Positions 3,566 to 51,537 of a DNA stretch of 64,000 bases are shown here, piece after piece. The translations under genes and the position numbers were made by a program. The first letter of the stretch is position 1; each line of letters opens with the position of its first letter. This stretch comes from Dryococelus australis (taxonomy: Eukaryota > Arthropoda > Insecta > Phasmatodea > Phasmatidae). The DNA lies in NCBI GenBank assembly GCA_029891345.1, contig CM056995.1:211433047-211497046 (forward strand). The letters run 5' to 3'. Below the pieces are notes generated by a model. It searched no databases. It had not been told where the DNA came from and saw nothing but the letters and a program-made list of their open reading frames with translations.

Positions 3566-4138
3566 TTACTCTAATTTTATAGAACATTTCCTGCAGTGAC
3601 CACTCAAGATGCCCCTATTCGCATATACAGTATTGCAGTTAACACATGTGTAGTTCTTGTAACTGATGACAAATGGACAGTTAGTATCTTCATGTTGTCT
3701 GGTGCTAAACCTAGTCGCGAATGTTTTGCTGGAATACTTGCACTCGCTTCCCGATGATGGACAAACAGTACCTTTACAATTCTTATGTCTATATAGGATA
3801 TTACTAAGAGTAAACACAGTATCGCACTTATCACAGTGGAACGACTGGTATGCTGGACTGAACAAACAATGACTACATTCATGTCGACGTGCATGACAAC
3901 TTGTAGTAAAAGTATTTCCACAATAATAACATTGTTTCTGTAATGCTTCTAGAGACTCTTCAGAGACCCTTGCTGACGGTGTTACAGATAGTAAGTCTTC
4001 AACCGTTATTACCATCTTCATCTTACAAAAGCTTACACTATCACTAGATGATTCCACTCGTGACGATCTGCTTTCCATCACAACCGTCGAAAAAGTGAAA
4101 ACATTCATACAGGACGCACGTTTATATACTGTTTTCAC
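3566..4138 (-). CDS. Small C2HC-type zinc-finger protein, single exon
   Basis: The open frame encodes 190 residues from the first Met, but a TATA box lies inside that 5' end, so Met21 (codon at 4076-4078), giving 170 residues, is the more likely start. Four finger-like units follow the pattern C-x2-C-x12-H-x(2-4)-C: C70/C73/H86/C91, C102/C105/H118/C121, C133/(Ser136)/H149/C154 and C165/C168/H181/C185. The third has Ser in place of the second Cys and may not bind zinc. The region before the fingers is Ser-rich. The final ligand is Cys, so these are C2HC rather than classic C2H2 fingers; by family knowledge they could bind nucleic acid or protein. Related two-finger ORFs lie in the palindrome arms at 47911 and 51537. 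The complete frame with TATA box and poly(A) signal argues for a functional or recently functional gene. Cellular role unknown; a transposon-borne or multi-copy family is possible. Confidence 0.7.
   Translation of the reverse strand: MKTVYKRASCMNVFTFSTVVMESRSSRVESSSDSVSFCKMKMVITVEDLLSVTPSARVSEESLEALQKQCYYCGNTFTTSCHARRHECSHCLFSPAYQSFHCDKCDTVFTLSNILYRHKNCKGTVCPSSGSECKYSSKTFATRFSTRQHEDTNCPFVISYKNYTCVNCNTVYANRGILSGHCRKCSIKLE
4121..4128 (-). promoter_or_regulatory. TATA box (TATATAAA) of the zinc-finger gene
   Basis: The minus strand reads TATATAAA here. Initiation about 30 bases downstream would fall near 4098, where TTTCACTTTT resembles an insect initiator. That places the first open-frame Met upstream of the TATA box, and favours Met21, the first in-frame Met clearly downstream of that position. 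Confidence 0.55.
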
Positions 4139-4429
4139 AACATAACATTTAGTTTATGTGTCACTCGAACTCAGTCAGAGAAAGAGATTGTGGTTCTAAG
4201 GGGGTGGAGCACAAGCGACAGAATGAGTAATTAGCAGGCGACTAAAGTGGAATGCGAGAGCATAAACATAGGGATTGAATGATAGAGCATGATGTCAAGA
4301 TGGTAGACAACAGGGTGGAAGCGGAATGTGAGAGCATGAAAAAATAGGGATGGAATGATATAGCATGATAAAATGAAATCCAAGATGGTGGGGTGGAGCG
4401 AACACGACCAAGGTCGAAGGAATTTGAGT

Positions 4430-4712
4430 AATTGGGACACAAGATGGTGGCCTAAAACAATACGGCAGGCAAGGTGGCGGCTGGAAACAAGATGACATAC
4501 AAGATGGCGGCAGGAAAAAATATGGCGGACAAGATGGTCACTGGAAACAAGATTGCAGGCAATTTGGTGAATGGTAACAAGATAGCACACAAGATGGCAA
4601 CCGGATACAAGACAGCAGACAAGATGGCAACCGGATACAAGATAACAGATAAGATGGCAACAGGATACAAGATAGTAGCCGGAAACAAGATGGTGGCCGG
4701 AAACAATATGGC
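4430..4712 (+). repeat. 30-bp minisatellite of AAGATGGC-containing units
   Basis: About nine imperfect units of ~30 bp, each made of two ~15-bp halves, with repeated AAGATGGC, AAGATGGCGGC or ATATGGCGG cores. The 108-residue frame through it (a K-M-A-x-G periodicity) is a by-product of the repeat. AAGATGGC matches the core recognised by YY1/Pleiohomeotic proteins (established knowledge); whether it is bound here is inference. It lies 300-570 bp upstream of the zinc-finger gene start. Confidence 0.85.
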
Positions 4713-4777
4713 GGTCGATCGGAGTCCTAGCCCCATTCTGAATCCTGTTTCACAATTGGTTATTTTCTTCTACTCAC

Positions 4778-4896
4778 CGCAGCCCCTACTTTATGGATAG
4801 TTACGTTAGATATGCTAAACTGGAAATTCTGAGGCTGAATGGCTACTAATCCCAACATATATTGGCATAAGAAATTTTTGTGCTTGTGTAATTTTG
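4778..4896 (-). CDS. Candidate internal coding exon, unidentified gene
   Basis: On the minus strand a 119-base segment is bounded by an acceptor (CTGTAATTACAG, ending at 4897) and a donor (GCG|GTGAGTAG, from 4777). Only one of its three frames is open, encoding 39 residues from KLHKHKNFLCQYMLG to VTIHKVGAA; the other two contain TAG. It would start with two bases of a split codon and end on a codon boundary. It is on the same strand as, and 640 bp upstream of, the zinc-finger ORF but need not belong to it. Its entry phase does not fit a direct join to the candidate first exon at 13168-13259. The product is not recognised; a chance open segment remains possible. Confidence 0.3.
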
Positions 4897-4979
4897 CTGT
4901 AATTACAGAAACCGTCAATAAGGTTCTTCGTAAGCCCGTATCACATTTTAATAGTGGGTTTGCGAGCAACAAAATTTGA

Positions 4980-5814
4980 TGTTACAAGAACACAATGCAT
5001 ATATATAGCCATGATCCAGAAAATACTATGAAAATTTTAAATTCCAAACTGGCGCGAACGCGTTGATCTGTGTCTGCAATTTAATGGTCAACATATTAAG
5101 AACATTCTGTAAAGTTGTATGTATGTTCCCTATGTATGGAGACTTTTTTGGGACAACCTGTACATTGTATCAACTATTGTTACATGTGATGGTTTTGTTA
5201 ATGGAAATATACTGTCAATAAAATAATCCTTACCGAAATATATTAAGTGCTTAAAATTCTGTTCTTGATTTTATATTTCGGGAATTCGCACAATGCAAGT
5301 CCTTCCAACAGCCTTTAATTTTATACAGCAGCAGTACAGACATTTAGATCTAGACTGCTCACGGTAAAGCAAGCCCTTTTGAAATTAACCTTTGAAAAAT
5401 TATTCTTATTTACTGCGTATGTACTATCGTACATACTGACATGCAGGATCTCAGTTAAGTTGGTAGCATAAAAGGTAAAATAGTTTCAAGTCTTTACGTT
5501 TTATTACGAGTTTAAAGGATAAATTAATAGCAAAGAAAGTAGTTTTTTTTTCTTTTTCTTTATTAGAATACGAACTGACATTAGGAACACATGTAGGTTC
5601 CTGATAGTTTCAAGTTTTCACTTAACTCGCGTATGAATTAAGTCATTAGGCAAATTGCTATGTAAATTTTACATAGGCATATAGTGGAAGGATACCGAGT
5701 GAGGATGGAAATAGATCTTCAGGATAGGCACAACACGCCATGTTGAATTACTGTTTTAAAGTATTTCAGTTGTTTAAGCACACTTATTTTACAACTACAA
5801 TTACATATATCTTT
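4980..5814. other. Intergenic DNA, no feature recognised
   Basis: Ordinary AT-rich sequence. Neither a terminal inverted repeat nor a coding segment could be supported; the open frames at 5719-6039 run into the SINE that follows. Confidence 0.45.
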
Positions 5815-6010
5815 CTGCCAATAACTCCGAATTTTCGCAAGGGGGAATCGTGCCAGACGATAAAGCTGGTCGGTGGGTTTTCTCGGGGATCTCCGGTTCT
5901 CCTGCACTTGCATTCTGGCGCTGCTCCATTCTCACCTCATTTAACCATCATCGGCTCTCAAGATCTCGTTATTAAGAGCCACCCAAATCTCTCAACAACG
6001 TCTCTTGTCA
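5815..6010 (+). mobile_element. SINE family C, 5'-truncated copy
   Basis: Matches the body and tail of the full copy at 18395-18655 in order: TTTTCGCAAG, GGAATCGTGCC, GGTTTTCTCGGGGATCTCC, GGCGCTGCTCCAT, CTCACCTCA and AAGAGCCACCCAAATCTC. The tRNA-like head is missing. Confidence 0.8.
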
Positions 6011-6105
6011 CTATACATTACACTGTACAACGAACATAAATTCTGGACTTTCGTCAACTAATTATAACGTAATTAGTGCAGAATCATTTAAACATCATCT
6101 ATGCA

Positions 6106-6174
6106 GGGTGTTTCTAAACTAGCTCTACAAACTTCGGCATGAGGTCATTCACGAAAAAAGAAGGCCAAAACATA
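6106..6174 (+). repeat. Partial copy of the neighbouring element's terminus
   Basis: GCAGGGTGTTTCTAAAC followed by CTACAAACTTCGGCATGAGG and AAAACATATA resembles, in the same order, the left terminus of the element starting at 6175. It is probably a truncated relative. Confidence 0.45.
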
Positions 6175-6880
6175 TACAGGATGTATCTACATTCGGCCGA
6201 CAAACTTCGGGTGTAGGTTAATCACGAAAAGACAAGTTTAAAACATATATACGACATATGGTATAAAATTAATTCTAAGGGAGGTACAAATTGTTGAAGT
6301 TGTAGTAGAACAAAAAAGTATATTACAGTGGCAGTGTAATTTACCTCTCTTTGGAATCTTCACCTCGCTTTAGTAGTTACAAAAGTGTGTTACTGGGTGC
6401 CCCACCTGCCAGGTATTGATCAATATTATTTTACAAGTAAAACGCGAAATACTTGAAAACGGTGAGGTATAGGATGTTTACATAAGGATACATTTTTGTT
6501 CATTGTGACATGAGGATTAAGATTACATTCTTTAAATCCCGAATATGATACCGCGACATGGATGTTAGTTCGAAATAGATGTAGTAACAGAGATTATTAA
6601 AATGATATAATTTGATGACAGCGACAAGCGTTGTAGTGTTCGAAGATCGTTGTTCAGTTAACCATTATCCAGACAATCGGTGTTCCATCTTAAATATTAT
6701 CTCCAATATTTGCAAAAAAAAAAAAAAAAAAAAAAAAAAAGTTCCAAGTTGAACTTGGAAAGATGCGTACCATTCGTAGTATTCAATTTAGACCATAGGT
6801 CGTATACATGTTTTAAACTTATTTTTTCACGATTAACCTGCGGTCAAAGTTTGTTAGTCGAATTTAGATACACGACGTAT
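6175..6880. mobile_element. Inverted-repeat element (MITE), ~95-bp TIRs
   Basis: The left end (CAGGATGTATCT, then GACAAACTTCGG, AGGTTAATCACG, AAGTTTAAAACATATATACG) is repeated inverted at about 6785-6880. Both ends abut TA, consistent with a TA target site as in Tc1/mariner-type MITEs. The interior holds a ~27-A tract (6714-6740) and no transposase. Confidence 0.7.
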
Positions 6881-6992
6881 AGTCTAAAGTGAATCCCTAG
6901 GGCAGTTACATATATTTAAAGTTGGACCTGAAGCGCTAGTTTATTACAACTACTGGAGATGAAGCAACAAGTATCTAGGTAATGTGCGAAGT

Positions 6993-7408
6993 TATAGGCC
7001 GTTCACGGTAAAATGAGCAATTTAAAAGCCCTGCTTAAGATCTACTTGCATGCATATTGTGTATTCTTCCCCCTTATGTAAGATTAACATTGTCATGGGC
7101 CTCATCACTTTATTCATGAGTCGGTCAAGTGAAACTATTAGAAAAGTAATATTTTACAAATCTGCTCATTTTTCACTTCGATGCATTAATTAAAAACAGA
7201 AAGCGAAATAACTAATTTAAATGATCAGAAATGGTTACCTAAAGCTTTTTATTAAATTTAAAGATACGGAACTACTTTCCATATGTCGTTACCAACTCTA
7301 CTGGGCGTATGTCACTTAGTGCACCCGTTAAAATATATGCAGCTGGGAGCAGTGACTTTTTCTAAGGTTGATTTCAAAAGTGCTCACTTTATCGTGAACA
7401 GCCTTTAA
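6993..7408 (+). mobile_element. MITE family A, full-length copy
   Basis: About 415 bp with terminal inverted repeats of the GGCTGTTCACGGTAAA type (here GGCCGTTCACGG and CGTGAACAGCC). The interior has the family markers CCCTGCTTAAGATCTACTTG, CATGGGCCTCATCACTTTAT, GGTTACCTAA and CGTTACCAACTCTACTGGGC. TA-rich target site; no coding capacity. Confidence 0.9.
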
Positions 7409-7738
7409 CTGTGACACGTCGTTTCATAACTACCACATAACGCGTGGATAACACTTGGCGACTTTATATTTGAAGGTAGCTATAAAATGTAAACGTACTA
7501 TAATAAGAAATAGTTGTTTCATTGAAAAGAAAGTTTTGACATACAAACGGGAAATTTAACATGGCGGATTAGACAGAAAGTTAAATAGGGCTTTCAAAAG
7601 TGCTCAGCAGTAAACAGCGAAGTCAACAGTAGTGAAGTAAGCATAAACTTCAGCGAAGGCCGTTCCTGATGGCAGAAACATTACGCCGACTTGCGTAGGT
7701 ACTGTTTATTGTGGAAACCGCGCTCGTTTGTTCTGCAG
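7409..7738. other. Unassigned DNA between MITEs
   Basis: No repeat family or gene recognised. The 3' part becomes more GC-rich and contains the polypyrimidine tract and acceptor-like CTGCAG in front of 7739. Confidence 0.35.
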
Positions 7739-7846
7739 GGTGCGTGAATGTGCGCGAGGTTTGTGTTGGGAAGAACTGCGACTGTTTTGCTAACCTTCCT
7801 AAAACTACGAGGAGAGTCGGAGATCCTGGGTGTGGACGCGACCTAC
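7739..7846 (+). CDS. Candidate Cys-rich internal exon
   Basis: 108 bases lie between an acceptor (TCGTTTGTTCTGCAG, ending at 7738) and a donor (CCTAC|GTGAGT). Only one frame is open; the other two have early stops. It would encode about 35 residues with five Cys in a C-x6-C-x4-C-x-C spacing followed by one near the end, the kind of content seen in extracellular Cys-rich domains. It lies in a GC-richer block of unique-looking DNA between two family A MITEs. No family recognised; the surrounding frame stays open for 111 codons, so a chance open segment is quite possible. Confidence 0.22.
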
Positions 7847-8104
7847 GTGAGTCTCATACGCCCAGGTATGCATCGAGGGCACAGGTATGCGGCTTTACTG
7901 GGATTGGGCAAACTTGGCCGTTACTAGGGCCATGTTTACTTCCTGTACTAACTTCTGACCTTAACTACGAAGCGAGGGGGGAAAACCAACATATACGCCG
8001 TCAAAAGGGGAATGGGATTGAATGTTCTTTACGAAAAAAGTTTTGAAATGCTAGAAGGAAAGTTTGGTCACGGAGAAATCTATTTCTTTGGTCGCATCTA
8101 TTCT

Positions 8105-8520
8105 TAAAGGTTGTTCACGATAAGTGAGCACTTTTGAAATATGCCTTAGAAAAAAGTCACTCCCCCTACCTGCATGTATTTCAACGGACGCACTGAGTGC
8201 AATGTGCCCGGTAAAGTTGGTAACGATAGACGGAACATAGTTCCATATCTTAACGTCAAATAAAAAGTGCTAGGTAACCATCTGTGATAATTTAAACTAT
8301 TTATTTTGCTTTCTGTTTTTTTAAATACATCAGTGTGTAAAAATTATGATTTATAAAATGTTTACTTTTTTTAAAATAATTTCACTGTTTCACTCGACCG
8401 ACGCATGAATAAAGTGATGAGGCCCATGGCAATGTTAATTTTATAAGGCGGAAGAATACACAACGTGCATACAAGTAGATCTTAAGGAGGGCTTTCTCAT
8501 TTTACCATGAACAGCCTATA
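8105..8520 (-). mobile_element. MITE family A, full-length copy, inverted
   Basis: Reverse orientation relative to 6993-7408. Ends GGTTGTTCACGATAA and CATGAACAGCC; internal markers include AAAAAAGTCACT, GTAAAGTTGGTAACGAT, GATGAGGCCCATGGCAATG and TACAAGTAGATCTTAAG. Confidence 0.9.
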
Positions 8521-9691
8521 CTTTCCCGGAGAAAGCTCGGCTTATGCAACCACCTTATTGTCTGTCTGGAATGTACTGTATGTCCTCTTATAACTTTTGA
8601 ACCCGAGAAACGAATTTCACCAAACTCAGTCTCCACGTAGCAATTAGTGAGGGGACATTAGACTATTTAGCTAACAATAAATTCGGGTAATTATTTCCAA
8701 AATGACGGCAATTTTAATATTTAGCCCACTATGTCATATCTCGGGAACCATCAAACCGAATCAAACCAAATTTGCTATGTTGACAGTGCATGATGTAAGC
8801 ATAAGAATTATTAGGTAATAATGTTATTACTAAGCCATTTTCGAATATAGTGCAACGTGAAAAATTATTTTTCATGTTATATCTTGAAACTACACCATTA
8901 ATTTCTGCCAAATTTGCGTACAAGTAATACTAATGCAGGTGATATTATATGCAGTTTAAATAGCCCAGGTACTTATTTTCGAAATGACTGCCATATCAAT
9001 ATTTTTAGATTAATTTGCTGTATCTACCATACTGTTTGACTAATTCCGACCAATCTTTTTATGCTAAAAGTATCTATTAAAATTGTAAAAAGTGTCAACA
9101 CAAAAGTTCTTTTGGCCGCCATTTTTTAAGATAGCACAATATGAAAAATAAAAGCGTTATGTCATATATCGGGAAACAATCAACCGATTCCTACCAAATT
9201 TGGCACTCAAGTTATATTATGCTGGGCCATCTAAACTGAAAAGATTTAGTGAGTAAAAATTTATTTTTAAAATTGCAGAAATATAAAACTTTAGATTACT
9301 ATGCTATATGTATGTAAGCAAGAAACACATTTTAAAGTACATGTGTATGCTGGGAGTATTTATTACAACTGTGTCTACCCAGCGCCTATTTTGTTGACCA
9401 TTTTGTAAGATAGTACCACAAGAACAAATCAAGTTTTGTCATATCTCGGGAAACAATCAAACGATTCCTACCAAATTTAGGAAACAAGCAGTAGGGTAAA
9501 CTGAGTGTGTGGCCAGGCACTTATTTTCAAAATGGCAGTGATATAAATATGTTAGTATAGTGTTCTGTTCTATATCTATAAAACTATGTAACCAATTCCA
9601 ACTTGACTCTGTATGCTGGCATTATATTTTTCATTAATCAAATATATCCACACAGAGCCTTTCTATCGCCCATTTTGTAAGACAATGCCAC

Positions 9692-10230
9692 ATCTATACT
9701 AATATAATAAAGAGGTAATGTGAGTTTGTTTATTTGTTTATACGTAACGGCTAATCTCGGAAACTGCAAGGCCGATTCTTATAATTATTTCACTGTCAGG
9801 AAGCTACATTCTTCCAGATTGACATAGGCTATGTTAAAAAGAGTCACCGGTAGTCACGGGTTGTCGTAGGTAGTCGCAAGTTGTTGCAAGTAGTCGCAAG
9901 TTGTCGCAGGAAGTCACGGTTAGTCACGGGTAGTCGCAGGTAGTCATGGGTATTCACGGGTAGTCACGGTTAGTCGTGGGTAGTCACGGTTAGTCGTGGG
10001 TAGTCACGGATAGTAGCAGGTAGTCAAGGGTAGTCACAGGTAGTCACAGGTAGTCGCGGGTAGTCGCAGGTAGTCACGGGTAGTCGCAGGTAGTCATGGG
10101 TAGTCGCAGGTAGTCACGGGTAGTCGCAGGTAGTCATGGGTAGTCGCACGTAGTCATGGGTAGTCGCATATATAGATATATATTTGAATAACTCCATAAA
10201 AACCTGAGCGAAGCGATGGCGGGCTACTAG
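9692..10230 (+). mobile_element. Helentron-like non-autonomous element (HINE)
   Basis: It starts with TCTATACTAATATAATAAAG and ends with GCGATGGCGGGCTACTAG. Insect Helentron/Helitron derivatives share this start and a CTAG-type end (established knowledge). It carries a long 10-bp minisatellite, also typical of the class. It interrupts the 285-bp array: host sequence before (GCCACA) and after (TGAATAATAACAATTTTGTC) matches neighbouring uninterrupted units with no target duplication. No Rep/helicase is encoded. Confidence 0.75.
9842..10166 (+). repeat. 10-bp minisatellite inside the HINE
   Basis: Roughly thirty copies of a 10-mer alternating between GTAGTCACGG and GTAGTCGCAG, with higher-order 20- and 40-bp periodicity near the 3' end. 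Confidence 0.95.
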
Positions 10231-11861
10231 TGAATAATAACAATTTTGTCACATCTCGGGGAATCAATCAACCGATTTGGCAAACAAGTAGCACTAGAGT
10301 GAGCCGTGTAAACGGACATGTTTCAAGTGAGTCTGGCACATATTTTCAAAATGGTGGCAATACTAATATTTTATTTTGGTATGCTATCTACAAAATAACG
10401 AAACCAATTTCTACTTAACTTTGTTCAATGGCAGTATCTATTATACAACAATCTAGTGTGTCTACACAGGGCCTATTTTGTTCGCCATATTGTAAGATAC
10501 CTCTACATGAATAAATAAAGTTTTGTTAGGCTATGTATAGGGAAATAATCAACCGATTTCGACTTAAGTTGGCGAACACTTGCCGTGGTAGGCCATATAA
10601 TTTGATAGGTTATGTTTTAAGAGAGACAGACATTTACTTTCAAAATAGCATCCATACAAAAATTTAGCTCTGTAGGGCTTATGCTATATCTACTAAACAA
10701 TGTAACCAATTTGAACTTAACTTTGAATGCTGGCAGTATCTATGCAAGCTTCAAATGAGCTAGGCTTAATACATAAACTCATTTGTCCGTCATTTTAGAA
10801 GATAGCCACACATGAAAAATTAAACATTTTTGTCATCTCGGGAAATACTAACTGATACCCATCAAGAACGGGCGACAAGTTATACTTTCGTAATACACCT
10901 CAAGTTATATTACTTAAGGCGGTAGTCACACATTTTTTAAATAACAGCCACGTAAATATTTTGTTACTATGCATATGTCCGAAACAATTTCAATCGAAAT
11001 TAATATGTAGCAGTATATTAGACAAACATAGTGTGCCAATAAGTAACCTTTTGTTTCCTATTAATGAAGGTAGTACCATATGAGAAAATGGAGCTTTATG
11101 CCATATGTCGGGGACCAATCAAGCTATTCCCACCGAGTTTTGTACACACGTAGTGCTACAGTAGGCCTCGCAAACTTACACGTTTTAAGTGAATCCTGAC
11201 AATATTTACAATATAGCTGCCATATAAATAATTTAGACAAGTTTGCCATATCTTTTAAACAATTGAACCAATTTCAATTAATTTTTTTTATGCTGAGAGT
11301 ATCCATTAGAAGCATTAAATATGCACAAAGTTTTTCTTTAGGCCGCCTTCTTGTCAGATAGTGCCAGGTGATAAAATGTAACATTTATGCCGTATTTCAG
11401 GAACCAATCAAACAATCCCAACAAAATTTTCCACACAGGTAGTACTACAGTTGGGCCTGTAAATTTACATGATTTAAGTGGGTCAGTATTGTTTTTTGGT
11501 TGGTTGAAGTATCAATATTTACATAAGTTTTTTATATCTAATAAATAATTTTCAAAAATTCAACCAAACTTTTTATGCTTACTGTATATATCAGAATCAG
11601 CAGATATGCATACACAAAGCATGTTTTAGGTTTTCTTTACAATACCGCCAAATAAGAAAAAAAATTTATGTCGTATCTCGGGGACCAGTAAACTTATTTC
11701 CATCAAATTCTGCAGACAAGTAATGTTACGGAATGTCACGATAACTTAAATTATTTAAGTTGCTCAAACACTTGTTTTCAAATCATGCCCCTGTAAACAT
11801 TTGAGTTTGGTAGACCCAGTCTACCAAAACTGTCGACTGATTACAACCGAAGTTAATGCTC

Positions 11862-12200
11862 GAAATCACGGCAGTGGAAGACAGGCCTGGACACTAACTT
11901 GAAAAGTTGACGTCCTTATTGACCCATTTTGTTCATGAATCCAGCTACAGAGCGCTGCTACCGAAGTAGTGCTGTTTGACATTGAAAGCATGGGAAGGGG
12001 AATTGCAATTTTTTCATAAAATGGGAAAATGACGTTCATATCTCTATGGTGTCATCCCTATACCAGCAATGCTAACAACACTAGTTTGCTTGCAGCGCTC
12101 TGCGACTACTGCATGAAATAAATCAGTCAATAACGTGGTCAATTCACTAACATTGTTAGACATGCGAGTGTCCAGACCTATCTTCTACAACCATGCTCAG
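11862..12200. mobile_element. Inverted-repeat element (MITE), ~110-bp TIRs
   Basis: The left arm (GTGGAAGACAGGCCTGGACA, then TTATTGAC, TTCATG and CAGAGCGCTGC) is mirrored on the right (CAGCGCTCTGC, CATGAAATAAATCAGTCAATA, GTGTCCAGACCTATCTTC). No coding capacity; superfamily not assigned. Confidence 0.7.
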
Positions 12201-12214
12201 AATCCTGCCTCTGT

Positions 12215-12300
12215 AATGCAGTTGGTGACGTATCAGCTTGAAGTACGAGGCGTTCTGTGTTCGAGTTCCAGGTAAGACACGTGTGTATTTGTAATTGTCT
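12215..12300 (+). mobile_element. tRNA-like SINE head fragment (family E)
   Basis: Contains an A-box-like GTAATGCAGTTGGT and a B-box-like GTTCGAGTTCC followed by GGTAAGACACG. The same head with a better B box is at 16045-16110. The GGTAAG-CACG string after the B box resembles SINEs common in polyneopteran insects (recalled). Not a functional tRNA: no cloverleaf can be drawn. Confidence 0.45.
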
Positions 12301-12769
12301 CACTGTTATTGCTTATTTCTGGTTCCATCGCTAATGCTATCTATGTCAACGAAATTTCAAGATACACCTACAATCTAAAATGTTAAGAACTTTATCAAAA
12401 TTAATTGCGTCCATGTAGAGGAAGTTAGGCTCTTAAGTTATATCCGGCCACTTCTTGTTTTATTTTGTTGTAACCAGAACTGAGAGAGACGCAACAGCTC
12501 TGGTGGAGAGGGGAGTGCGCTATTGCCCCCCTCCACCACACCAAAACCCCCGTAGAGGGGAAATTAGGTGGAGCGCGCGCCCGAGCTGCGCAATAGTAGG
12601 TAATTTTGTGTTCCGACGTCGATCAGCTTTTCTGCCATTACGACTGTCACAGACAATGTGGATGTGATCTGAGGTTAAGACACTGTTCACGTCAAGTACT
12701 TTCAGATGTTTGTACACTTCCTTCCTCTAACCAATTTTTTAAGCTCTTTCATTAAATTTAAATTTGTTT
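12301..12769. other. Unassigned DNA with a GC-rich hairpin
   Basis: Mostly unstructured. Around 12498-12538 the string TGGTGGAGAGGGG pairs with CCCCCTCCACCAC to form a strong short hairpin. No gene supported. Confidence 0.4.
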
Positions 12770-12990
12770 AAGTATTTTATTCATATAGAAGGGGTTGTGT
12801 CTTATCAAAACTAAGATGTACACAAACATGTTCATCACTGTTGACCATGTGACTTTGAAAGTTGTATTGGCGGTGGGAGCAGGATATATAATTTCGGATG
12901 TTTTTGGAAAGGGGGTGGGGTGGGCACTTTCCCATCGTGCAGGCAATAGGGTTAGATTTATGATTAATAACATGTAAGGGACGGCATTGT
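12770..12990 (-). repeat. Dispersed repeat F, inverted copy
   Basis: On the minus strand GTCACATGGTCAACAGTGAT and the following GAACATGTTTGTGTACAT match 30079-30120 and 27568-27600 in the plus strand. All three keep a short frame reading V-T-(W/C)-S-T-(V/M)-M-N. It may be a decayed coding repeat such as a LINE fragment, but no diagnostic motif is present. Confidence 0.5.
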
Positions 12991-13087
12991 TCAATCACAA
13001 CATGAAAAATAAAATAAAATCAGTACTTTTACTTCAGTTTTAAAATGTTTAAGAGGCACTTTGAGATATATATATAAAATATAATTG

Positions 13088-13097
<10 letters not shown>

Positions 13098-13156
<59 letters not shown>
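13098..13156 (+). repeat. (TA)n microsatellite
   Basis: About 59 bases of pure AT dinucleotides, immediately downstream (minus strand) of the donor of the candidate first exon. The tyrosine-isoleucine frames running through it are artefacts. Confidence 0.95.
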
Positions 13157-13161
<5 letters not shown>

Positions 13162-13167
13162 ACTTAC

Positions 13168-13259
13168 CACCTGCTGGGGTGCATGCCGACGGCGCTGTAG
13201 CCGACGCCAGAGCTGCGGAGGTGATAGTGGTGATGCTGGTGAACTTCCTTCGGCGCCAT
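13168..13259 (-). CDS. Candidate first coding exon of an unidentified gene
   Basis: On the minus strand an ATG in strong context (GGAAGGATGGCG, ATG at 13259-13257) opens a 92-base segment encoding MAPKEVHQHHHYHLRSSG and twelve more residues. It ends at a near-perfect donor (GGTG|GTAAGTGA) after 13168, leaving a two-base split codon. This ATG is the first for about 200 bases upstream in a GC-rich leader, as expected for a real start. Composition is unlike the AT-rich surroundings. Two overlapping minus-strand frames (85 and 111 codons) use GTG starts or read into the (TA)n tract. The protein is not recognised; a His-rich N-terminus is common in developmental regulators but not diagnostic. If real, the rest lies at lower coordinates, perhaps tens of kb away. 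Confidence 0.45.
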
Positions 13260-14510: not shown

Positions 14511-14582
14511 CCTATACTCCGCGACTCCGATGTGCTAGCACGCTGGTTTGGACGCCAAACGAAAGACTTCTTATATAATCCA

Positions 14583-16516: not shown

Positions 16517-16559
16517 CTGTCCATACTCGCGAAATATGTCGAACAACGAGCCAACTCAA

Positions 16560-17849: not shown

Positions 17850-18275
17850 TATGGACTGTTCACGATAAAGTGAGCACTTTTGAAATAAACCTCAGAAAAA
17901 GTCACTGCTCCTACCTGCATATATTTTAACGGGCGCCCTGAGTGACATGCGCTCAGTAAAGTTGGTAACGATGGATGGGAAGTAGTTCCGTATCTTAACG
18001 TCGAATAAAACGTGTTAGGTAACCATTTCTGATAATTTTAATTAGTTCTGTTGCTTTCTGTTTTTTTTTAAATATATCGAAGTGTAAAAATGAGCAGATT
18101 TGTAAAATGTTTATTTTTCTAATAATTTCACAGTTTCACTTGGCCGAAGCATCAATAAACTGATGAGGCCCATGACAATGTTAATCTTACATAAGGCGGA
18201 AGAATACACAACGTGCATACAAGTGGATCTTAAGCAGGGCTTTCAAAAGTGCTCATTTTACCGTGAACAGGCTAT
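17850..18275 (-). mobile_element. MITE family A, full-length, nested
   Basis: TATGGACTGTTCACGATAAA to CCGTGAACAGGC with all family markers; inserted at the inner end of the left arm of the 17545-18935 element, so it is younger than that element. Confidence 0.9.
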
Positions 18276-18394
18276 AATAATGTATCATATAAATTTTAAA
18301 ACTAACTTTATTTACGTCAGTTTCAGCCATAAATGTTTGTTGCAAATGGACGCACATAAAAATTACTATAAAAATTATTTGCTACATTATTATT

Positions 18395-40240: not shown

Positions 40241-41978
<1,738 letters not shown>

Positions 41979-42394
41979 TATGTTCACGGTAAAGTTAGCA
42001 CTTTTGAAATCAACCTTAGAAAAAAGTAACTGCCCTTTCTATTATAACGGACGCACTTAGTGACATACGCCCAGTAAAGTTGGTAACGATGGATGGAAAA
42101 CAGTTCCATATCTTAACGTCGAATTAAAAGTCTTAGGTAACCCGTTTGTCATAACTTAAATTATTTATTTAGCTTCGTAATTTTTTTATGTATCGAAGCG
42201 TAAAAAAAGAGCACATTTGTAAAACATTTACTTTTTTTAAAAATAATTTCACAGTTTCAATTGACCGACGAACGAATAGATTGATGTTCATGGCAGTGTT
42301 AACTTTGCATAAGGTGATAGAGTATACAATGTGCATACAAGTAGATATTAAGCAGGGCTTTCAAAAGTGCTTATTTTATCGTGAACAGCCTTTA
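41979..42394 (-). mobile_element. MITE family A, full-length copy, inverted
   Basis: ATGTTCACGGTAAAGTTAGC, AGTAAAGTTGGTAACGATGG, GACCGACGAACGAATAG and ATCGTGAACAGCCTTTA in order. Confidence 0.9.
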
Positions 42395-42403
42395 GGTAGG
42401 CAG

Positions 42404-42560
42404 AGCTTAACGTCTCGTCGATAGCGAGGTCATTAGAGACGGAGAAAGTAGCTCAAAAAACGGAACTGACAAGGAATCGGCCGTAACCTGAAGTAAGGAA
42501 CTATCCCAGAATTTGCCTGGAGTGATTTAACCTAGAATTTACCAGGGCGTTTATTCTAAG
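42404..42560 (+). mobile_element. SINE family D fragment
   Basis: AGCTTAACGTCTCGTCGATA, GCGAGGTCATTAGAGACGGA, AATCGGCCGTAACC and TTTGCCTGGAGTGATTTA follow the order of a SINE recalled from orthopteran-type genomes. It directly follows a MITE, as the 19865 fragment does. Confidence 0.65.
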
Positions 42561-44609
42561 TTTCTGAGGAAATCTATCGGCAGGTCTCGATGTCGATCTC
42601 GACAGTCAGCGTTCCTGCCGATCGGGAGAAGCTATTTGAAACGATCGGCAGCAAAATGTACCCAAATAGCTATTCTAAGCGCACTATAGTTTCGAGACCT
42701 CTCGCCTTCAGTAGTCCTCCCCTCTGGTTTTATCGACCTCCCCACTACAACTAGCTTCCTCTCCCTCCCATTTATGCAGGCAGGCAACGCGACGAATGCA
42801 AACACACACTGTGCCTGCAATAATGTATGATTAAAGTAAAGCTATTTTTACAAACTGTGTCATATAAAACACATACTATTCCATTTATTAAAGCGCAATG
42901 CAGGATATTTAGAGTGAAATTTCTCGACATGGCTACGATCTCATCGAATGGTTAGACATTTGGCTGAGGAAAATGGTGAGACAGTGAATGGTTAATGTGT
43001 TGTAAACACCGGGTGGCTGTTGAAAATATTACTCTTTTAAAGGAACATGCTGTTCCATGTATAAAAACGACTGTTAAAATATGAGATAATTCGTTACGTA
43101 GTAATCCCTCTAACAGCCCTTTTTAATGACGTTCACAATGACCGTAACGACATGTATGGATGACGATACGTAAGACGTCATTTTAATAAATACAGCTATA
43201 AAGTTTGCTTGGAAAGTACGTTACACCTAAACAACTAATCTTACATATTAAAGTGTTTAATCGATTTATTGTAGGAGCGCACAAATTCCCGTTACCACTA
43301 GTGAAGTAACGTGCTTCGTACACATAAACTGTGTAGGCTATATATAGATATTCATAAAATGACAGAAGCTGCCGATTTAATTAGTTTCATTATTGCTCAT
43401 AGATATAACATTGTTTGCTTTATTATTATGAGAAGTACAATAAAGGGAAGGGATGGGGGGGCTCTAGTTTCACGGTTTTTATAAGACGATATTATTTTGA
43501 TGCTCTTACCAGTGCGAGGGATTTTGAGTTGCATATTGTTTTGATGGAGCAGTGGTACATTTTGCTCGAATGGAAATAACAGTTACATTATTGTAACTTC
43601 GAAAATTGTAACATTAATGAAAAAAACATAACGCGATACATACGTCGCTGTTCGTATTCTTACAGATGCAAACACCCCCCCCCCCCCCCCACACACACAC
43701 AGAGTTAACCTTACACACGTCGCATTTACGATATAGACAACTATTATTTACGCACTACAAAAGAGTTGAAAGTACGGCTTTTTCAGGCCACGTGCATTTT
43801 AGCCTTTTACATATACATTATTTACAAAACACGCACAGTTACTGTTTTGTAAACTCCGCAACCTCTTGAATACACGTTTTTCTATGGAATTCCTTGCATG
43901 TTTACGTTACTACAATCACGTTTGTTTGTCGCCAGCATTAAATAAATTATTTGCAGAATCGTTCAGTGAAATCAACACTGGGCACGTTTCCTGAAACAAA
44001 AAAATGTAACTACGTAAATGTAGTAAATAAAATTCGTCGCTCACTGCGGAAGAAGTTAAGACAAAGGCGGCACGAGCACAATTTTCGACGCCGTAAAGGT
44101 GTGTCGACTAATATTACACATTTCACTCAAGAAAACATACTACGACAAACTATGCTTGAAGAAAGCCAATAAAATAATGATTAACTGCCGATTAATTATT
44201 CCGACGACACCAACAAGATGCTCGTATGAACACACAACCTCTCGGCCATTGCTACACTTACGAAATTAACTCACGATACAGAAATATAACTCCACACTCC
44301 CGAATATGTGTGTATACAATAAGATGCATATAATAATGCTCCACGTGTATTATAACCTTGCACATTATGTATTACGTATCAGAAGTACGATACGATAAGA
44401 TGTATGCCAGTTTGCAATAAATATGGCCACCACGCTTCTCACCCGCTATGTCAAATTTCCGCTTCCCGATCGGGAACGCGGCTTTCCACAACATATAGCT
44501 GTCGAGTGCTCTCGATCGTTTTCTCACGAGAATCGAGAAGTCATCTTTAACTTGGAATATCAAACACCGGAGATATGATGTAAATCGTTATTTCACGATC
44601 GGAGCTCCG
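42561..44609. other. Unassigned DNA with a poly-C tract
   Basis: A C-run at 43674-43690 precedes a (CA)n stretch. 42555-42640 contains CGATCTCGACAGTC-type imperfect palindromes. The 73-codon ATG frame at 43951-44172 is basic but has no recognised domain. No gene called. Confidence 0.35.
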
Positions 44610-44726
44610 TTTCGAAAAAAACTTCGAATAAACACCATGGAGTGATTTCGGGAAACCATGGAAATGGCCAGGATGGCCGTACCGGGAACCGAACCAAGGT
44701 TCTCCAAATCATCCAAGTTAACTTCA
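44610..44726 (-). mobile_element. SINE family D body, inverted
   Basis: Minus strand: GAACCTTGGTTCGGTTCCCG, GGCCATCCTGGCCATTTCC and ATGGTTTCCCGAAATCACTC. Abuts the outer edge of the left palindrome arm. Confidence 0.65.
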
Positions 44727-44837
44727 GTAGTAGGGCCGTGCTGATCCAACCCACCTGGGAATAAATGGGATTAATTGATGGATTATAGATTTGATTGGAA
44801 GAATTAATCCTTAATCCGATCATAATCCAATTACAAA

Positions 44838-44945
44838 TTGAACAAGTTAAATGGATTGAAAGGGTTAAATTGATTAAAAGGGTTAAATTCAATGAAAGGG
44901 TTAATTTTATTGAAAGGGTTGAATGTATTGAAATGGTTAATTTTA
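44838..44945 (+). repeat. 16-bp tandem repeat ATTGAAAGGGTTAAAT
   Basis: Six or seven imperfect units near the outer end of the left arm; the right arm keeps a shorter version at about 54800-54880. Confidence 0.85.
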
Positions 44946-45628
44946 TTTTTTTCTTGTTCCACTTCTTTCATCCTTTCTTTTTTTTTTTTTTTGGGAGTAG
45001 GTAGCAGGAGCTCTGTACGATGTTGACACTGTGGTGATTTGAAGGCGACTGACCAGAGTGGTGGGTTGCAATGTGTTATATAGGTGTTGAGTTGAGTGCA
45101 ATAGTGTGCTAAGGGAAATTTTACATATTTTTTCTAATCTTGATGTGTTTGTAGGGATGTTGGTGGTAGATAGGCGATTTTTATGAATATATTTAACACA
45201 TGAGAGAATTTCAGAATTTTTGAACAATTTCTAAAAGTGATATAAGTGTACATTTTATGTTCTTTTGGGGAATATAGCTCATAGACGGTGGTGGGAGATA
45301 GGCGACTTTGAAAGATGCGACAAACTATTTAATAGACGACGACTGTTTCCGAATGCAATTATGCATTGGAGAATTTCAGAGTATTGTGCATATGAATAAA
45401 TTAAACACATCGAATCGCAAATTTCAAACGACTACGAAAATAAAAAGAGCAATTATTTTAGCATGGAATTAAACATAAAGTTATTTTACTACCCCAAGAA
45501 TAGAAATATATTTGACAAGAGAGCAGTATAAAACAATTACGTGAGTATGGAATTAATGATCTGCAACAAAATATCCCTATAAATTAAGCAAATTATATAT
45601 ATATATGACGTCTCTTGCACATACCTTA

Positions 45629-45634
45629 CACATC
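45629..45634 (-). promoter_or_regulatory. Conserved splice donor, left arm
   Basis: Minus strand GTGTAAG|GTATGTGCAA; the right-arm partner reads GTGTAAG|GTATGTATGA. Retention in the diverged outer part suggests that each arm encodes a spliced outward transcript. Position approximate. Confidence 0.35.
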
Positions 45635-46046
45635 CGTCTGCCATTGATACTGGCGAGGAGGAACGTAATCCACATGTAAAAATAAATAAATAGATTAATA
45701 TGCATGATAAAATTGCACCTCTCCCAAAACACGTCTGATCAGCTGGGAGCTCAGATAATCACTGAGTCGATCTTACGTCGAGAGCCTGACAATATACACA
45801 TGGAACACGTTGGGAAGCTGACAAACGACTGAGGTTATAGCTACTTGGAAATAGACGTGAATATGATATACGTGACAAATGGATAACAATTATGTTTACG
45901 ACACACATATTAATATATAAATTAGACTAGTTGAATTTATAACAGACACAATAGAAAAACCCACAATGAAATGGCAGCAGGAACTCCCCAACAACACATC
46001 CGTCCACCTCTGAGGTCACTCGAGGAATGAGCATATCGTATGAGGT

Positions 46047-46054
46047 TTATATAC
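46047..46054 (-). promoter_or_regulatory. Outward TATA box, left arm
   Basis: Minus strand ACACGTATATAAACC. The right arm has ACACGTATAAAAGC at the mirrored position, about 30 bases before a region conserved in both arms. Predicted to drive transcription away from the palindrome centre. Confidence 0.4.
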
Positions 46055-46383
46055 GTGTAGCACGGCCGGCATCTTAAAGGCAACTGAGTTGAAATTTACT
46101 ACTGATAGAAGTGATTTCCCTACTATTAACGATTTGATTCGTCCTAAAAGAACATGAATGTATAAAAGCGAATTATTTAACTAATAACATACATATTAAA
46201 ATTTTTTTTCGTACAGTCTGGTAAATAGAGCACACTTGCTAACAAAACACGAGTTAAAAATAATACCAAGTTTCGTCTACCGAACACAGAAATGGGGTTT
46301 AGATGATAAACATACTATCACACAAAAATTTATATACTTTTTCTTTTAAATTAAAAAAAGTTCCCAGATATTCAAATCCAGGG

Positions 46384-46860
46384 GTACAGATGGCTCCCGA
46401 GGTCTCTGCACACTTATTCCCACCTCTCACCTCCACCCCTCACCAGAGCGACATATCCTGGGGTTATTCACCCGTCTTCCCCAATTGTCACTTTTTTGCC
46501 ACTGAGGCAAGATGGCGACAATTGGCAAGAGAGCTTCACATCGCCTCTGCTTGCCTGTGGACATCCCCTACCCTCCACCCCTTGCGAGTTGGACGTGTTC
46601 CGAGGTCAGGGAACCCAGACCATCCCTCCAACCCCTACTTCAGAATCTGTCTTTGCCCGAAATGTCAGTTTCTTCTCCAATGCCATGCATCCCCAACCCG
46701 GATGCTCTCAAATATCTCGAGAGCTGACCTGTCCACACAGCCTGCCCTTGCTGCTGATCCAAGGTCATGCAACAGCCTGACATATTCCCAGCGAATTACA
46801 AATTTCGCAAGTCCCGCCGATCAAAAATTCTTTAATACCCGAGATAATCCCCAAATTTAA
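46384..46860 (+). other. GC-rich long open frame in the left arm, coding status unclear
   Basis: The frame (185 codons if non-ATG starts are allowed) is shared with the right arm (209 codons at 52588-53217) with only a few amino-acid changes (for example Cys/Arg, Arg/Cys, Asn/His). It includes the phrase FFATEARWRQL, produced by a DNA module ending CAAGATGGCGACAATTGG; in the right arm this module is duplicated in phase. Composition is Pro/Ser-rich without a known domain. Openness may follow from base composition. Confidence 0.3.
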
Positions 46861-47910
46861 CATTCCAACAGCAAGTATATATTTGAATCAAGCAAACTAT
46901 GATTTGAAAGATCACACAGAAATACAAGACATATTGGATTCGCTCATTTAAAAAAAAAACATTTTTTTTATAACTATTGAAACAAGACATATATTTATTC
47001 TTCTAGCAGCCAAAAATGCGTATTTTCCATGTAGACTTGTCTACAACACTATAATTTACATACAAACAAAGTTACAATTCAAAAGCATCCCAATCGAGTT
47101 TTTTTGATACACTATCTAGCATAAAATTTGTATATACTCGAACATACTTAAAAATCTATTTCCTTAGAAAACAAATTTGGTCGTAATATTACTGAAATAA
47201 CACATATCCAGCTTGAAATGACTACTATCGGATCTGAAATCTGTAAAATTTCCACGATAATTTAATACATTTAAGCGAAATTTAAAGGAAAACAGCGGTC
47301 ATTTTGTAGTCGTATAACCCATCTTTTAGGATAATACATTCCGACTAGCAACAAATTATTTACATCGTTAAGAGATATCCGAGACAAATAACTTTTTTCC
47401 ATACAACTTAGGAATCGACATTACTAATTATCAGACAAAAGTTAGTGGGAAAAACGAAATTCGTATTACATACGCACGTATAAAACAGAAGACTATTAAG
47501 ACAATCACAGCTCAAAATGGCTTATTCAACAGACTTACCTCCTACTAACACAATCGTTTAGTAAACAAAGTCTTAAAAAATTCCCTACAAAATACTTCTA
47601 AACCCATCTGTCCCTTCTACATTCCTGAAATTAAATTATTATTTATTCATTTTAATCAAATACCAAGTAAACACATATTCCATCTAACATACGTAGATTT
47701 AATCACATGGTGAATTAGTACGCATACCCCTGCAATTAACATACAAATATTAGAACGGAAGACATTTTACCATCATTAATGAAACTTGATACTGTTTAAA
47801 ACAGTACATTCATACAGAAACAAGTTAGTTGTCATTCTGACATTGTGAGGTGAACATCTAATCAGAAATATTTCTCCTCACACCGAAGATTATTCATTTA
47901 ATCTACATTG

Positions 47911-48129
47911 ATGAGAATGGAGACATCGCCTAATAAACTACACTGCAAATGCTGTGGGAAAATGTACACTTTCGCATACAGTGTTCACAGACATGAGGGG
48001 AGCAAGTGTTTGAAGAATTCATCTTGTACGATTCTCAACTGTAAATACTGTTTTCGTCAGTCCGCACGAATGGATAACTTCAGTCGTCATGTCAAGATGT
48101 GTAAAAGAAAAGAAATAATCTTCTCCTGA
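47911..48129 (+). CDS. Two-finger C2HC zinc-finger ORF, left palindrome arm
   Basis: From the first ATG the frame gives 72 residues with two fingers: LHCKCCGKMYTF...HRHEGSKC (C-x2-C-x12-H-x4-C) and LNCKYCFRQSAR...SRHVKMC (C-x2-C-x12-H-x3-C), then a basic tail. The same x12 spacing, the final Cys instead of His and the alternation of x4 and x3 link it to the four-finger protein at 3566-4138, of which it could be a shortened relative. It lies at the inner edge of the left arm; the last few residues lie past the repeat boundary, so the right-arm partner ends differently. No clear TATA box or poly(A) signal was found. Could be a single exon of a larger gene. Zinc binding is inferred from ligands. 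Confidence 0.55.
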   Translation: MRMETSPNKLHCKCCGKMYTFAYSVHRHEGSKCLKNSSCTILNCKYCFRQSARMDNFSRHVKMCKRKEIIFS

Positions 48130-48969
48130 GAAAGTAAATATAGCATCTACACTGCATAATATCACAGAAGGAGAGGGAAATAACGTAATTGCAAGAAATG
48201 ACATAGAATCGGATAGAATAAAATATACAATAACACTTGAACACAATGATTTTCGACATAACCTACCACAACCAGTTGCAAATACCAGTGTCGTGACGAT
48301 ACACCTAGTCTTTTTAAGCAAAGTAAAGTCGATATTTATGATGAAACATTAGGTGCAGATAGTAGTGAGGATTGGTTGATATAAACTGGGTTCGAGTCTG
48401 GGTTAGGTTATGTATGTATGTAATCTAGTTTCTGACTTTCAGTTTTGGGTAGCTATGATTGTAATACATAGATTTTGGGTCCGAGTCTCGAGTTAGGTAC
48501 GAATGTAACCCTGTAAAAGGAATAACGAATGTAACACTGTTAATTAAACTAAAATAAATTCGTTCGTGCACGTAAAAAGCTAGTTGAAAAGTATAACATT
48601 CTGGTTGCAAACACCTCATATTGTGAAAAGTTCGTATTTGAATAATAATACTTCGTATACAAAATCGTTAAATATGAACAGGTGACAGTTGTCACGAATT
48701 TCCTGGCTTTCAACTCTAAAATACGCCTACCTACCCAAATTGGGAAAATTACTGCTGTTCCACGGACCTGTGGGCTGTGGGAGTGCCCTGGTTAATGGCG
48801 AGCATGCGGCAACTGGCGGCTAGCGGCGACGTCCCTGGGCGCGAATCACGAGCAACAGTGATACCACACCATGCACCTTTTCTCACATAGTGAGCGGCTG
48901 GCTGTCCTTGGCTCCTACACGTGGCAGGCCGGCTGTGGTGGTGCTTGCTGCAGCCATCCTCTTTACTAT

Positions 48970-49035
48970 CACCAGTGATATCATCCTGCCAATCAGCCAG
49001 TGATGTCATCCTGCCAATCAGCCAGTGATAGCAAT
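48970..49035 (+). repeat. 25-bp tandem repeat (CATCCTGCCAATCAGCCAGT)
   Basis: Two full units and a partial third, nearly identical. Confidence 0.9.
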
Positions 49036-50984
49036 CTCAACGTGCCCTGTGTGCGCTCACAGATGGCGCATCACGTCCAGTTTGATGTCAGCATCGTCTA
49101 CAAAATTTCCAGTGCTCTGCCTTGTTTGCACAAAAGTTTCCTGATTCGTCAGTGAATTCAAGCTACCCCTATAACAAACATTCCTGCCCGCTTCCTTCAC
49201 TTGTAGTTCGAGGTCGATTCACTGCCTTCGAGGACAGCAGCAACAACCTCCAGATAAGCGAGACTTTGCAACAAAATTTAACTTGGTAAGCCAGTATGGC
49301 GAAAATTAGGCAAATCACATTTTGTGATTTTAAATAGGAGCTGTAAGAGCCATGTTGGCGAGAAAAAACTTTAGAATTTTGTTCTTCTTTTGAGCTTGCT
49401 AGGTCACTATCTAAAATTAAAAAAGATTGATCATACAAACTTTAGAAAAAAACATAGTTTCCTTATGAAATATTAATGAAAATTCAACTTACTTGAAAAG
49501 TTATAAAGCTTTCAAAATATATAATGTAAAGGTGCAAATTTTTAGGCTAGGCATTTAAATACACTTTGTAAATACAAATATGCATGAATGATTTTAATGT
49601 CACCTTTTAAAATTTTGGTTGGCCACCTGACCTATGGTTTAGCCAGGCCCAATTTTTTGAGTAATTTATCGATAGACTTTGAGACCTCATGTAGAGGTAC
49701 AAGAATAGTCTACAAATACATTTTGATCATTTTGGGCAATGGCCTCGAAATGTTTGGATGGTCATGATAGTTTTATATTTGGGCAAAAGTGCCTCGTAAA
49801 ACCCAATGTCTGCTCAAAGAATTAAAGTGTAATGGAAGTTGGGAAACATTGCCATTTAGTATATGGCAGAACTACTCTCATTTCAGTATCAAGTTTTTTG
49901 CCAAAATATTCATGTTAACACACATTTATTATGTTTTTCATAACTGTCAGAATGTCAGTATAATTGCTATGTGCAAGATTTTCCCCCTTTTGTAAAATCC
50001 TCGTTTCTGATTTGGGAATTTGTAGGCCAACCATTAAAAATATTAATAAACTAGTGTAAATTGCTTATTGTCACATCGTTTTAAGTTTGGCCTTGGAAGA
50101 TGTTATTTACATTATTTGAACCCCTTTTAGATCTGTATTCATTTTATATGTTGGTATGTAACCAAACAAACTTCATATTAATTAAAACATTAAGGCCCAT
50201 GTTTGGGGCTATTCTAGTGGTTAAAAGGAATGGAAAAGAACAAAACAAAATAAAAAGAATCTTTACAGTATTTCATGGATTTTCTATGTTCTTATTTATG
50301 CTATAGTTTTAAATTTTGCACTGATTATGAAGTTTCTCTGCTCAACGAGGGTTTCCTTTGTGTGTTAAAATGGGTTTTTACTGCAGACGTGTTGAGTCCA
50401 CTTTGCCACGCCTTTGTGGGGACAAGGGTGTAGCAAACATAATCAAACCTATTGGCTTAAAACTGGACAAATACACGTTCAATTCTAACATATACATGCT
50501 AAATTAAAACTAAAAATCATGTTAAAAGGTTTTAAATGAGATAAATTTGCTTAAAAATGTGTTAAAACAGTTTCTGTCACATAATATGTAAGTTTAATAC
50601 ATTTTGATAGCGAATTATGAAATATAAAATTTGGCAAGAAGGGAGAGTTGTGGGCTCCGCATTTGCTGATCTGACTTCATGGAGGTATCATCTCCCATCC
50701 ATCGCGCTCGGAAAACCTGTGAACCAGTCAGCAATTTAAAGGACACCAGTCGCTTGTTTCAACCATCCGCTAGTGGGACCTGACGCGACGGGGTTGTGTC
50801 GTGAATAAACTTCTCTCTTCTAGTTCTACCGCCCACGGCCCGCTGGAAAATTCGCCCGCAGAGCTCACCTGGGACTCAGATCGCCCGACCGCTTGCTAGC
50901 CTACTGGGGTAGGCTCCCACGGAGCTCTTGAGAGTATTGCGAGCACCCGCCTGCTAACCTGTTGGGGTAGGAGCCCCGATGCTC

Positions 50985-51046
50985 ACCTGGCAGAGCGGCC
51001 TAACTTTCAGCTCGACTGTTCTGGGTTCGGGTTTTGTTCCACACCC
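50985..51046 (+). repeat. tRNA-like pseudogene or SINE head
   Basis: A-box-like CCTGGCAGAGCGGCCTAA and B-box-like GGGTTCGGGTTT at tRNA-like spacing; no complete cloverleaf, so not called a tRNA gene. Confidence 0.35.
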
Positions 51047-51345
51047 ACCATCTTCGCTACAAGAGTTTAAGCAAGTCAATAATTCTAAATAAAAAAATTT
51101 AGGGTTTTCAGTATTTCATTCGAAATTTTTCGCGTTTTCTTTAAACTTTGAGTAAATTGCATGAATTTCATTTGACTTTTTTAAACAAATTGAATGATTT
51201 GTATTTAATAAAATTTTAAACCAGGTCTTTAGAATCGTAAAAGTTTTTATCAAATTAAATACTTGGTCTTTGAAATTGTAAAGCAAGTCTTTAAAATCGT
51301 AAAACTTTTTATCGATTTGAATGATAGGTTATGATTTTTTTTCTT

Positions 51346-51537
51346 TCAGATCTTGACATGACGACTGAAGTTATCCATTCGTGCGGACTGACGAAAACAG
51401 TATTTACAGTTGAGAATCGTACAAGATGAATTCTTCAAACACTTGCTCCCCTCATGTCTGTGAACACTGTATGCGAAAGTGTACATTTTCCCACAGCATT
51501 TGCAGTGTAGTTTATTAGGCGATGTCTCCATTCTCAT
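51346..51537 (-). CDS. Two-finger C2HC zinc-finger ORF, right palindrome arm
   Basis: Mirror copy of 47911-48129 with the same sequence up to SRHVK, then Ile and a stop, because the frame runs past the inner edge of the arm into different spacer DNA. The last Cys ligand of the second finger (SRHVKMC in the left copy) is lost, so only the first finger is complete. The left copy therefore looks like the more complete version and this one like the truncated partner. Confidence 0.45.
   Translation of the reverse strand: MRMETSPNKLHCKCCGKMYTFAYSVHRHEGSKCLKNSSCTILNCKYCFRQSARMDNFSRHVKI

Follow-up and report, generated by a model that had tools for sequence, protein, structure and literature searches.

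Three open reading frames (ORFs) with C2HC zinc fingers lie in the window analysed here, a stretch of 64,000 nucleotides of Dryococelus australis (assembly GCA_029891345.1, contig CM056995.1, positions 211,433,047 to 211,497,046). One frame encodes a protein here called ZF-A, and the other two are copies of a second, ZF-B. The three look like decayed mobile-element genes and not like a host gene family. We consider it probable that ZF-A and ZF-B are accessory genes for DNA-binding proteins borne by Maverick/Polinton elements, virus-like mobile DNA that is very abundant in this genome, their window copies having decayed on two different carriers. The carrier of ZF-A would be a decayed one-armed fragment (about 1055-4187), and that of ZF-B a decayed 10.2-kb Maverick-type element lacking core genes, with ZF-B in each of its long inverted ends. 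This placement is unusual: ZF-B sits twice per element, once in each inverted end, and no report of a finger gene in Maverick arms was found in the literature, as judged from titles and abstract openings.

Finger frames, their copies and their decay

A six-frame scan of the window for C-x2-C-x12-H-x(2-4)-C gave six matches, all inside the three ORFs, against a chance level of 0.225 on average and 1 at most (40 first-order Markov controls). The shared C2HC finger grammar reported by the initial annotation is thus present. The frames and their surroundings are as follows.

3566..4153, - strand: ZF-A, an open frame of 195 codons with four C2HC finger positions, of which the third is damaged in the window
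4122..4128, - strand: TATATAA box upstream of ZF-A, a sequence match
3482..3487, - strand: AATAAA downstream of ZF-A, a sequence match in a plausible place
1055..4187, - strand: one-armed fragment carrying ZF-A; extent approximate, likeness to other copies ending at about 4187
47911..48129 (widest 47902-48129), + strand: left-arm copy of ZF-B, truncated past its two fingers
51346..51537 (widest 51346-51546), - strand: right-arm copy of ZF-B, its frame ending close to the inner edge of the arm
48130..48372, + strand: stretch matching the ZF-B linker region and downstream sequence of other copies; frame broken in the window

The third ZF-A finger of the window copy reads C-K-Y-S and has lost one cysteine, which is kept in most of 29 other copies. 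A TATA[T/A]A sequence was found in 22 of those 29, and the TATA box and poly(A) signal claimed for one locus are both in place at ZF-A. Because of the position of TATATAA, the likely start is the ATG at 4078, giving a predicted protein of about 170 codons instead of 190. In ZF-B the window frame meets a stop after the fingers, with an A-rich stretch adjoining; six other copies, picked for their open frames, extend to 203-243 codons, and the longest read continues past its two fingers with a short C-terminal region, from which an acidic linker separates them.

The zf-C2H2 model (PF00096) gave 14.4-20.3 bits on five ZF-B frames, below its curated cut-off of 25.2, and no PF00096 match was listed for ZF-A in the domain scan. 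NCBIfam and PHROGs returned nothing useful, and no relative turned up in the viral contigs scanned. Predicted structures (mean predicted local distance difference test score, pLDDT, 34.5 for ZF-B and 33.4 for ZF-A) were left unused. The idea of chance open frames within repeats retains practically no probability: the shortness of the ORFs would suit it, but the six fingers against 0.225 expected are counted as refuting it, and the long frames of the other copies, chosen though they were for openness, also stand against it.

Both families are abundant in the genome searched, which is the window's own assembly (3,415,067,245 bases in 646 records). A first look returned 17,550 candidate places for ZF-A and 13,041 for ZF-B, which are unscored places and not confirmed copies; all of the 150 scored in each family match, the weakest listed at about 1e-51 and 1e-25, respectively. 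The family had been described as multi-copy, which these thousands of candidate places bear out, and as small, which they contradict. All neighbour and pair counts given here and below rest on listed matches, the best 150 or fewer per family. Among the 150 listed for each protein, ZF-A pairs within 5 kb are all divergent (7/7; 0.03 pairs expected) and ZF-B pairs within 25 kb are all convergent (6/6; 0.17 pairs expected).

Copies of ZF-A and ZF-B decay neutrally, like non-coding DNA. Divergence across copies was measured by codon position, and the ratio of third to first and second positions is 0.92 (0.76-1.05) over 30 ZF-A copies and 0.85 (0.72-0.99) over 19 ZF-B copies outside the query stretch. 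At least one in-frame stop occurs in 18 of the 19 ZF-B copies; the window copy has none but carries four frameshifting indels. An excess at third positions in the ZF-B fingers (0.147 vs 0.080 and 0.095) was considered as a sign of selection and dropped, because it is confined to the query stretch, where third positions equal the non-coding flank (0.144-0.161), and the rest of ZF-B has no such excess. With copies decaying neutrally and no result pointing to a defence role, the suggestion that the family guards against mobile DNA finds no support.

The same observations bear on a host C2HC transcription-factor family whose copies were swept along by repeats. In its favour, the finger type descends from C2H2, ZF-A finds its best match among sequences of solved structure in CTCF (1.6e-4), and comparable C2HC pairs occur in some host factors. 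Such a family is nevertheless very improbable in view of the thousands of candidate places, the inverted pairs, the neutral decay and the clear similarity to a Maverick finger ORF described below, with no search of host proteins made.

Ends, arms and target-site duplications of the ZF-B carrier

The ZF-B frames of the window lie in an element of 10.2 kb (44726-54958), which starts with AGTAGTAGGGCC at 44726 and closes with the inverted motif at 54958. A second ZF-B copy, on C1, has an element start, AGTAGTAGGG, 3.4 kb outside its ZF-B.

44726..44731, + strand: left terminus, AGTAGT end motif
54953..54958, - strand: right terminus, end motif; read on the + strand as ACTACC, which differs from ACTACT at one base
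44720..44725, + strand: left copy of the target-site duplication, AACTTC
54959..54964, + strand: right copy of the target-site duplication, AATTTC, 5/6 identical to the left AACTTC
44726..48119, + strand: left arm, a long terminal inverted repeat with ZF-B
51331..54958, - strand: right arm, a long terminal inverted repeat with the second ZF-B
48120..51330, no strand: central part, without a Maverick gene among its ORFs or by tblastn with Maverick protein fragments from this genome

The end motif recurs at 376 places in the genome with at most two mismatches, while a reversed-pattern control gave 0. Among 100 listed ends, pairs within 40 kb comprise eight facing inward, one facing outward and none in the same direction. 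One inward-facing pair spans 76 bp and the others 8.2 to 18.8 kb, with five of the eight at 15-19 kb. Vertebrate Mavericks are described in PMC8097293 as having (AGT)2//(ACT)2 ends and 6-bp target duplications.

Target-site duplication was tested on nine elements, namely the eight inward pairs and the window element, with swapped flanks and permutation as control. Identity of the 6-bp flanks averages 3.89/6 in true pairs against 1.79 in swapped ones (p = 0.0002), with strict matches of 4, 2, 3, 4, 2, 4, 5, 5 and 6 of 6 per element. At lengths of 4, 5, 7, 8 and 9, true flanks exceed swapped ones little or not at all. When one extra 3-bp unit is allowed, two copies reach 6/6, and the observed mean is 4.56 against a control that likewise rises, to 2.57.

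Apart from these pairs as a set, the 76-bp one (C2:356435058-356435133) is a near-perfect palindrome that has ends of Maverick type, is flanked by an exact target duplication of 6 bp, and is perhaps the smallest possible derivative.

The arms of the window element consist of an inner inverted repeat of 1744 bp (46376-48119 / 51331-53072), 99.3% identical, and an outer inverted stretch (44727-46350 / 53364-54957) that is 78.5% alike. The two ORFs said to face each other in a palindrome are this ZF-B pair. Long frames of the outer arms (46303-46860 and 52588-53226) contain repeated stretches and are minisatellite-like rather than protein-like.

Likeness between arms varies among copies. The surroundings of the ZF-B gene are 95-99% identical between arms in four of five pairs read, whereas the C12 arms are 79-85% alike. 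Among ZF-A carriers, L053 forms a palindrome of 6 kb whose ZF-A part is 98-100% identical between arms, and ZF-A palindromes are mostly 74-84% alike. We therefore did not keep a general claim of near-identity between the arms of a copy: it is true for parts of four ZF-B pairs and of L053, and fails for C12 and most ZF-A palindromes. In some copies, transfer of sequence from arm to arm may have maintained the likeness; near-identical arms may also stem from misassembly. Between the ZF-B arms of another locus (L051, 5359-6222) lies a 288-codon frame that matches DUF4371 weakly (0.028, which is below cut-off) and may belong to a nested hAT-like element.

Maverick genes and the polymerase finger array

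Some elements with the same ends carry Maverick genes. A 4-kb piece of an 18.8-kb element on C9, the one element examined for integrase, holds an integrase domain (rve, 6.9e-6; 26.7 bits against a curated cut-off of 32.6) that is 43% identical to a C2 Maverick integrase, which passes the cut-off. The same piece has a frame matching the C2 Maverick at 3e-15, which we take to be ATPase-like. In a 17.9-kb element on C13, a 4-kb piece contains a double-jelly-roll capsid domain (PF21738, 8.3e-23). Listed capsid matches lie 8.0-9.3 kb from ends in three elements (five pairs vs 0.18 expected), one of which is the capsid query's own locus. Capsid and presumably ATPase-like matches occur within 8 kb of each other on opposite strands in 13 listed pairs (0.11 expected), spaced 2.9-6.8 kb apart. 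Of 54 matches listed genome-wide for the polymerase model PF03175, none comes as close as 20 kb to any of the 100 listed ends (0.06 expected). The initial annotation had allowed that the family might be carried by mobile DNA; the element ends, the target-site duplications and the Maverick genes of some same-ended elements now speak for it.

At L064 (1957-2469 and 4628-5176), a different Maverick-like element on C2, matches were seen to a phospholipase-A2-like domain (1.9e-10) and to an integrase (1.7e-8).

The resemblance to known Mavericks/Polintons is close in several respects. They share (AGT)2//(ACT)2 ends, inverted ends and 6-bp target duplications, a retroviral-type integrase and a double-jelly-roll capsid in some same-ended elements, and a size of 15-19 kb in five of the eight listed pairs. 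Elements of the window type differ in their very long arms with a protein gene in each, and the window copy differs in having no core gene. The end motif used in this comparison is the one published from vertebrate Mavericks (PMC8097293).

Foldback/Mutator-like elements unrelated to Mavericks, whose palindromic arms captured a finger gene, are an improbable alternative. Their target duplications are 9-11 bp long. Long inverted arms with tandem repeats, the 6-kb palindrome of L053 and one element with a 9/9 flank match would fit them, but the duplication signal is at 6 and not at 9, where the mean over the nine elements is 3.00 against 2.54 for swapped flanks; this small excess is carried by the single copy with 9/9, from which a 9-bp duplication had been considered, and that length was rejected. 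The Maverick-type end motif and the capsid and integrase genes also oppose this origin, for ZF-B-type ends and not for ZF-A carriers. Foldback/Mutator elements such as Tm1 of root-knot nematodes (listed as PMC3169594) have the long inverted arms and palindromic copies in common with the elements seen here, but differ from them in the length of the duplication and in the genes carried.

For ZF-A, the connection to Mavericks runs through the polymerase. On C1, a frame with four finger positions lies upstream of a Maverick-type polymerase gene. This polymerase finger ORF and the next polymerase-gene frame occur within 1.5 kb on the same strand in 47 of 47 listed pairs (0.02 expected), and in three listed pairs, one being the query's own locus, a PF03175 match is found no more than 2.5 kb from that next frame (0.012 expected). 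On the strength of these pairings, we read the four-finger frame as the place where the Maverick polymerase gene putatively begins.

The alignment of ZF-A with the polymerase finger ORF (hhalign 96.8%) covers 115 columns and includes all four fingers, and the raw score of 117 compares with 40.2 (standard deviation 7.8) for Cys/His-keeping shuffles. ZF-B in turn aligns with ZF-A. The four fingers of ZF-A stand in the same order as in the N-terminal array of the polymerase, yet ZF-A stops past the fourth finger and is unjoined to a polymerase, and identity is about 27%; ZF-B differs further in having two fingers and another C-terminal region. The initial annotation would have given up its view if the fingers matched a transposon-encoded protein, and this has come about in part, through the alignment of the four ZF-A fingers with the Maverick array. 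At one ZF-A locus (L019), a capsid-domain fragment (3.2e-7) lies 0.7 kb upstream of ZF-A.

Two further signs were left unused: two listed ZF-A matches within 20 kb of a polymerase finger match (0.26 expected) are too few, and the short stretches of DNA at which the C1 Maverick matches L014 and L020 concern one locus each.

The chromosomal distribution of the listed matches is uneven. C17, probably the X chromosome (Scaffold_4 in PMC10268593), holds 48 of 150 for ZF-A (14.3 expected) and 53 of 150 for the polymerase finger family, counting best-scoring copies only. The next polymerase frame, with 28 of 150, is less enriched there, and ZF-B, with 8 of 150, is not enriched.

Cargo gene or satellite, and possible function

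Several observations weigh against a Maverick origin of the finger genes, or limit it. No core Maverick gene was found in 44726-54958, either among its ORFs or by tblastn with this genome's Maverick protein fragments; the window element can therefore only be an internally deleted or a non-autonomous member. In the ZF-B pairs of C1, C2, C3 and C12, as far as these were read, tblastn likewise found no core gene, the sole exception being one weak frame match (7e-4). Same-ended elements with Maverick genes on C8, C9 and C13 were read for 1.2-1.3 kb each at the place predicted from the window, and ZF-B was not found there: the C8 and C13 pieces have no sequence at all in common with the window element at that place, and what the C9 piece has in common with the arms of other ZF-B copies is limited to stretches of 34-115 bp. 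The C13 element does hold a 1-kb stretch of ZF-B inner arm (L089, 1783-2800) beside its capsid gene, inverted relative to what a left arm would lead one to expect. Ends, ZF-B and core Maverick genes never occur together in any single copy read, and no listed ZF-A or ZF-B match lies within 20 kb of a listed capsid or ATPase-like match (0.26 pairs expected each). The only listed ZF-B near a PF03175 match, 16.7 kb from a C2 Maverick at 340.64 Mb, proved unrelated, since 18 kb read there contained no arm sequence, and this link was discarded. On the side of ZF-A, the capsid fragment is present at one of 31 loci only, AGACT was rejected as a carrier terminus, sitting inside a longer inverted repeat in both pairs read, and the Cys/His-keeping shuffles leave generic finger hydrophobics uncontrolled. 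Finally, length 6 had been spotted in some of the nine elements before the duplication test.

With ZF-B not found at the predicted places on C8, C9 and C13, and no core gene found between its arms, some Mavericks may carry ZF-B as cargo, or it may be the own gene of a non-autonomous satellite. The latter reading, to which we assign a real but lesser chance, places ZF-B, and perhaps ZF-A, on elements that are not autonomous and borrow the integrase and polymerase of Mavericks in trans; their only encoded protein would be their own finger factor, once per arm, and autonomous Mavericks would lack this factor. It agrees with the missing core genes in the window and in the four partly read pairs, with the missing ZF-B in the three gene-bearing elements, and with internal segments, in which no gene was recognised, common to the C2, C3 and C12 copies at about 68-88%, which argue for a family and not for random deletions. 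Against it, internal deletion of a larger element fits equally, and the gene-bearing elements were read in part, so ZF-B could sit elsewhere in them. A more specific form, offered tentatively, is a very large satellite family inserted by Maverick machinery, in which the twice-encoded finger protein of the polymerase-array type would serve as its own recognition or interference factor.

On the preferred reading of ZF-A and ZF-B as Maverick-borne accessory genes, the (AGT)2 ends would be the substrate of a Maverick-type integrase that carries out insertion. By recognising element DNA, at the ends or at a promoter, the finger protein might help replication, integration or expression. This role is a guess that we hold to be rather doubtful; it is suggested by the finger type, the likely common ancestry with the polymerase array, and the place in the arms.

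The repeats of Dryococelus australis are largely unassigned, with 1.56 of 2.17 Gb unclassified according to PMC10268593. Finger genes together with (AGT)2 ends offer a handle for assigning part of them to Mavericks and their derivatives. If lone finger genes of the polymerase-array type in arms prove true, Maverick satellites become testable, as does the question of how Maverick proteins find their own DNA.

Elsewhere in the window, positions 17856-18276 belong to a repeat of about 420 bp that recurs in some 10 other places, in both orientations and about 68-86% alike, and that resembles a short interspersed element (SINE) or a miniature inverted-repeat transposable element (MITE).

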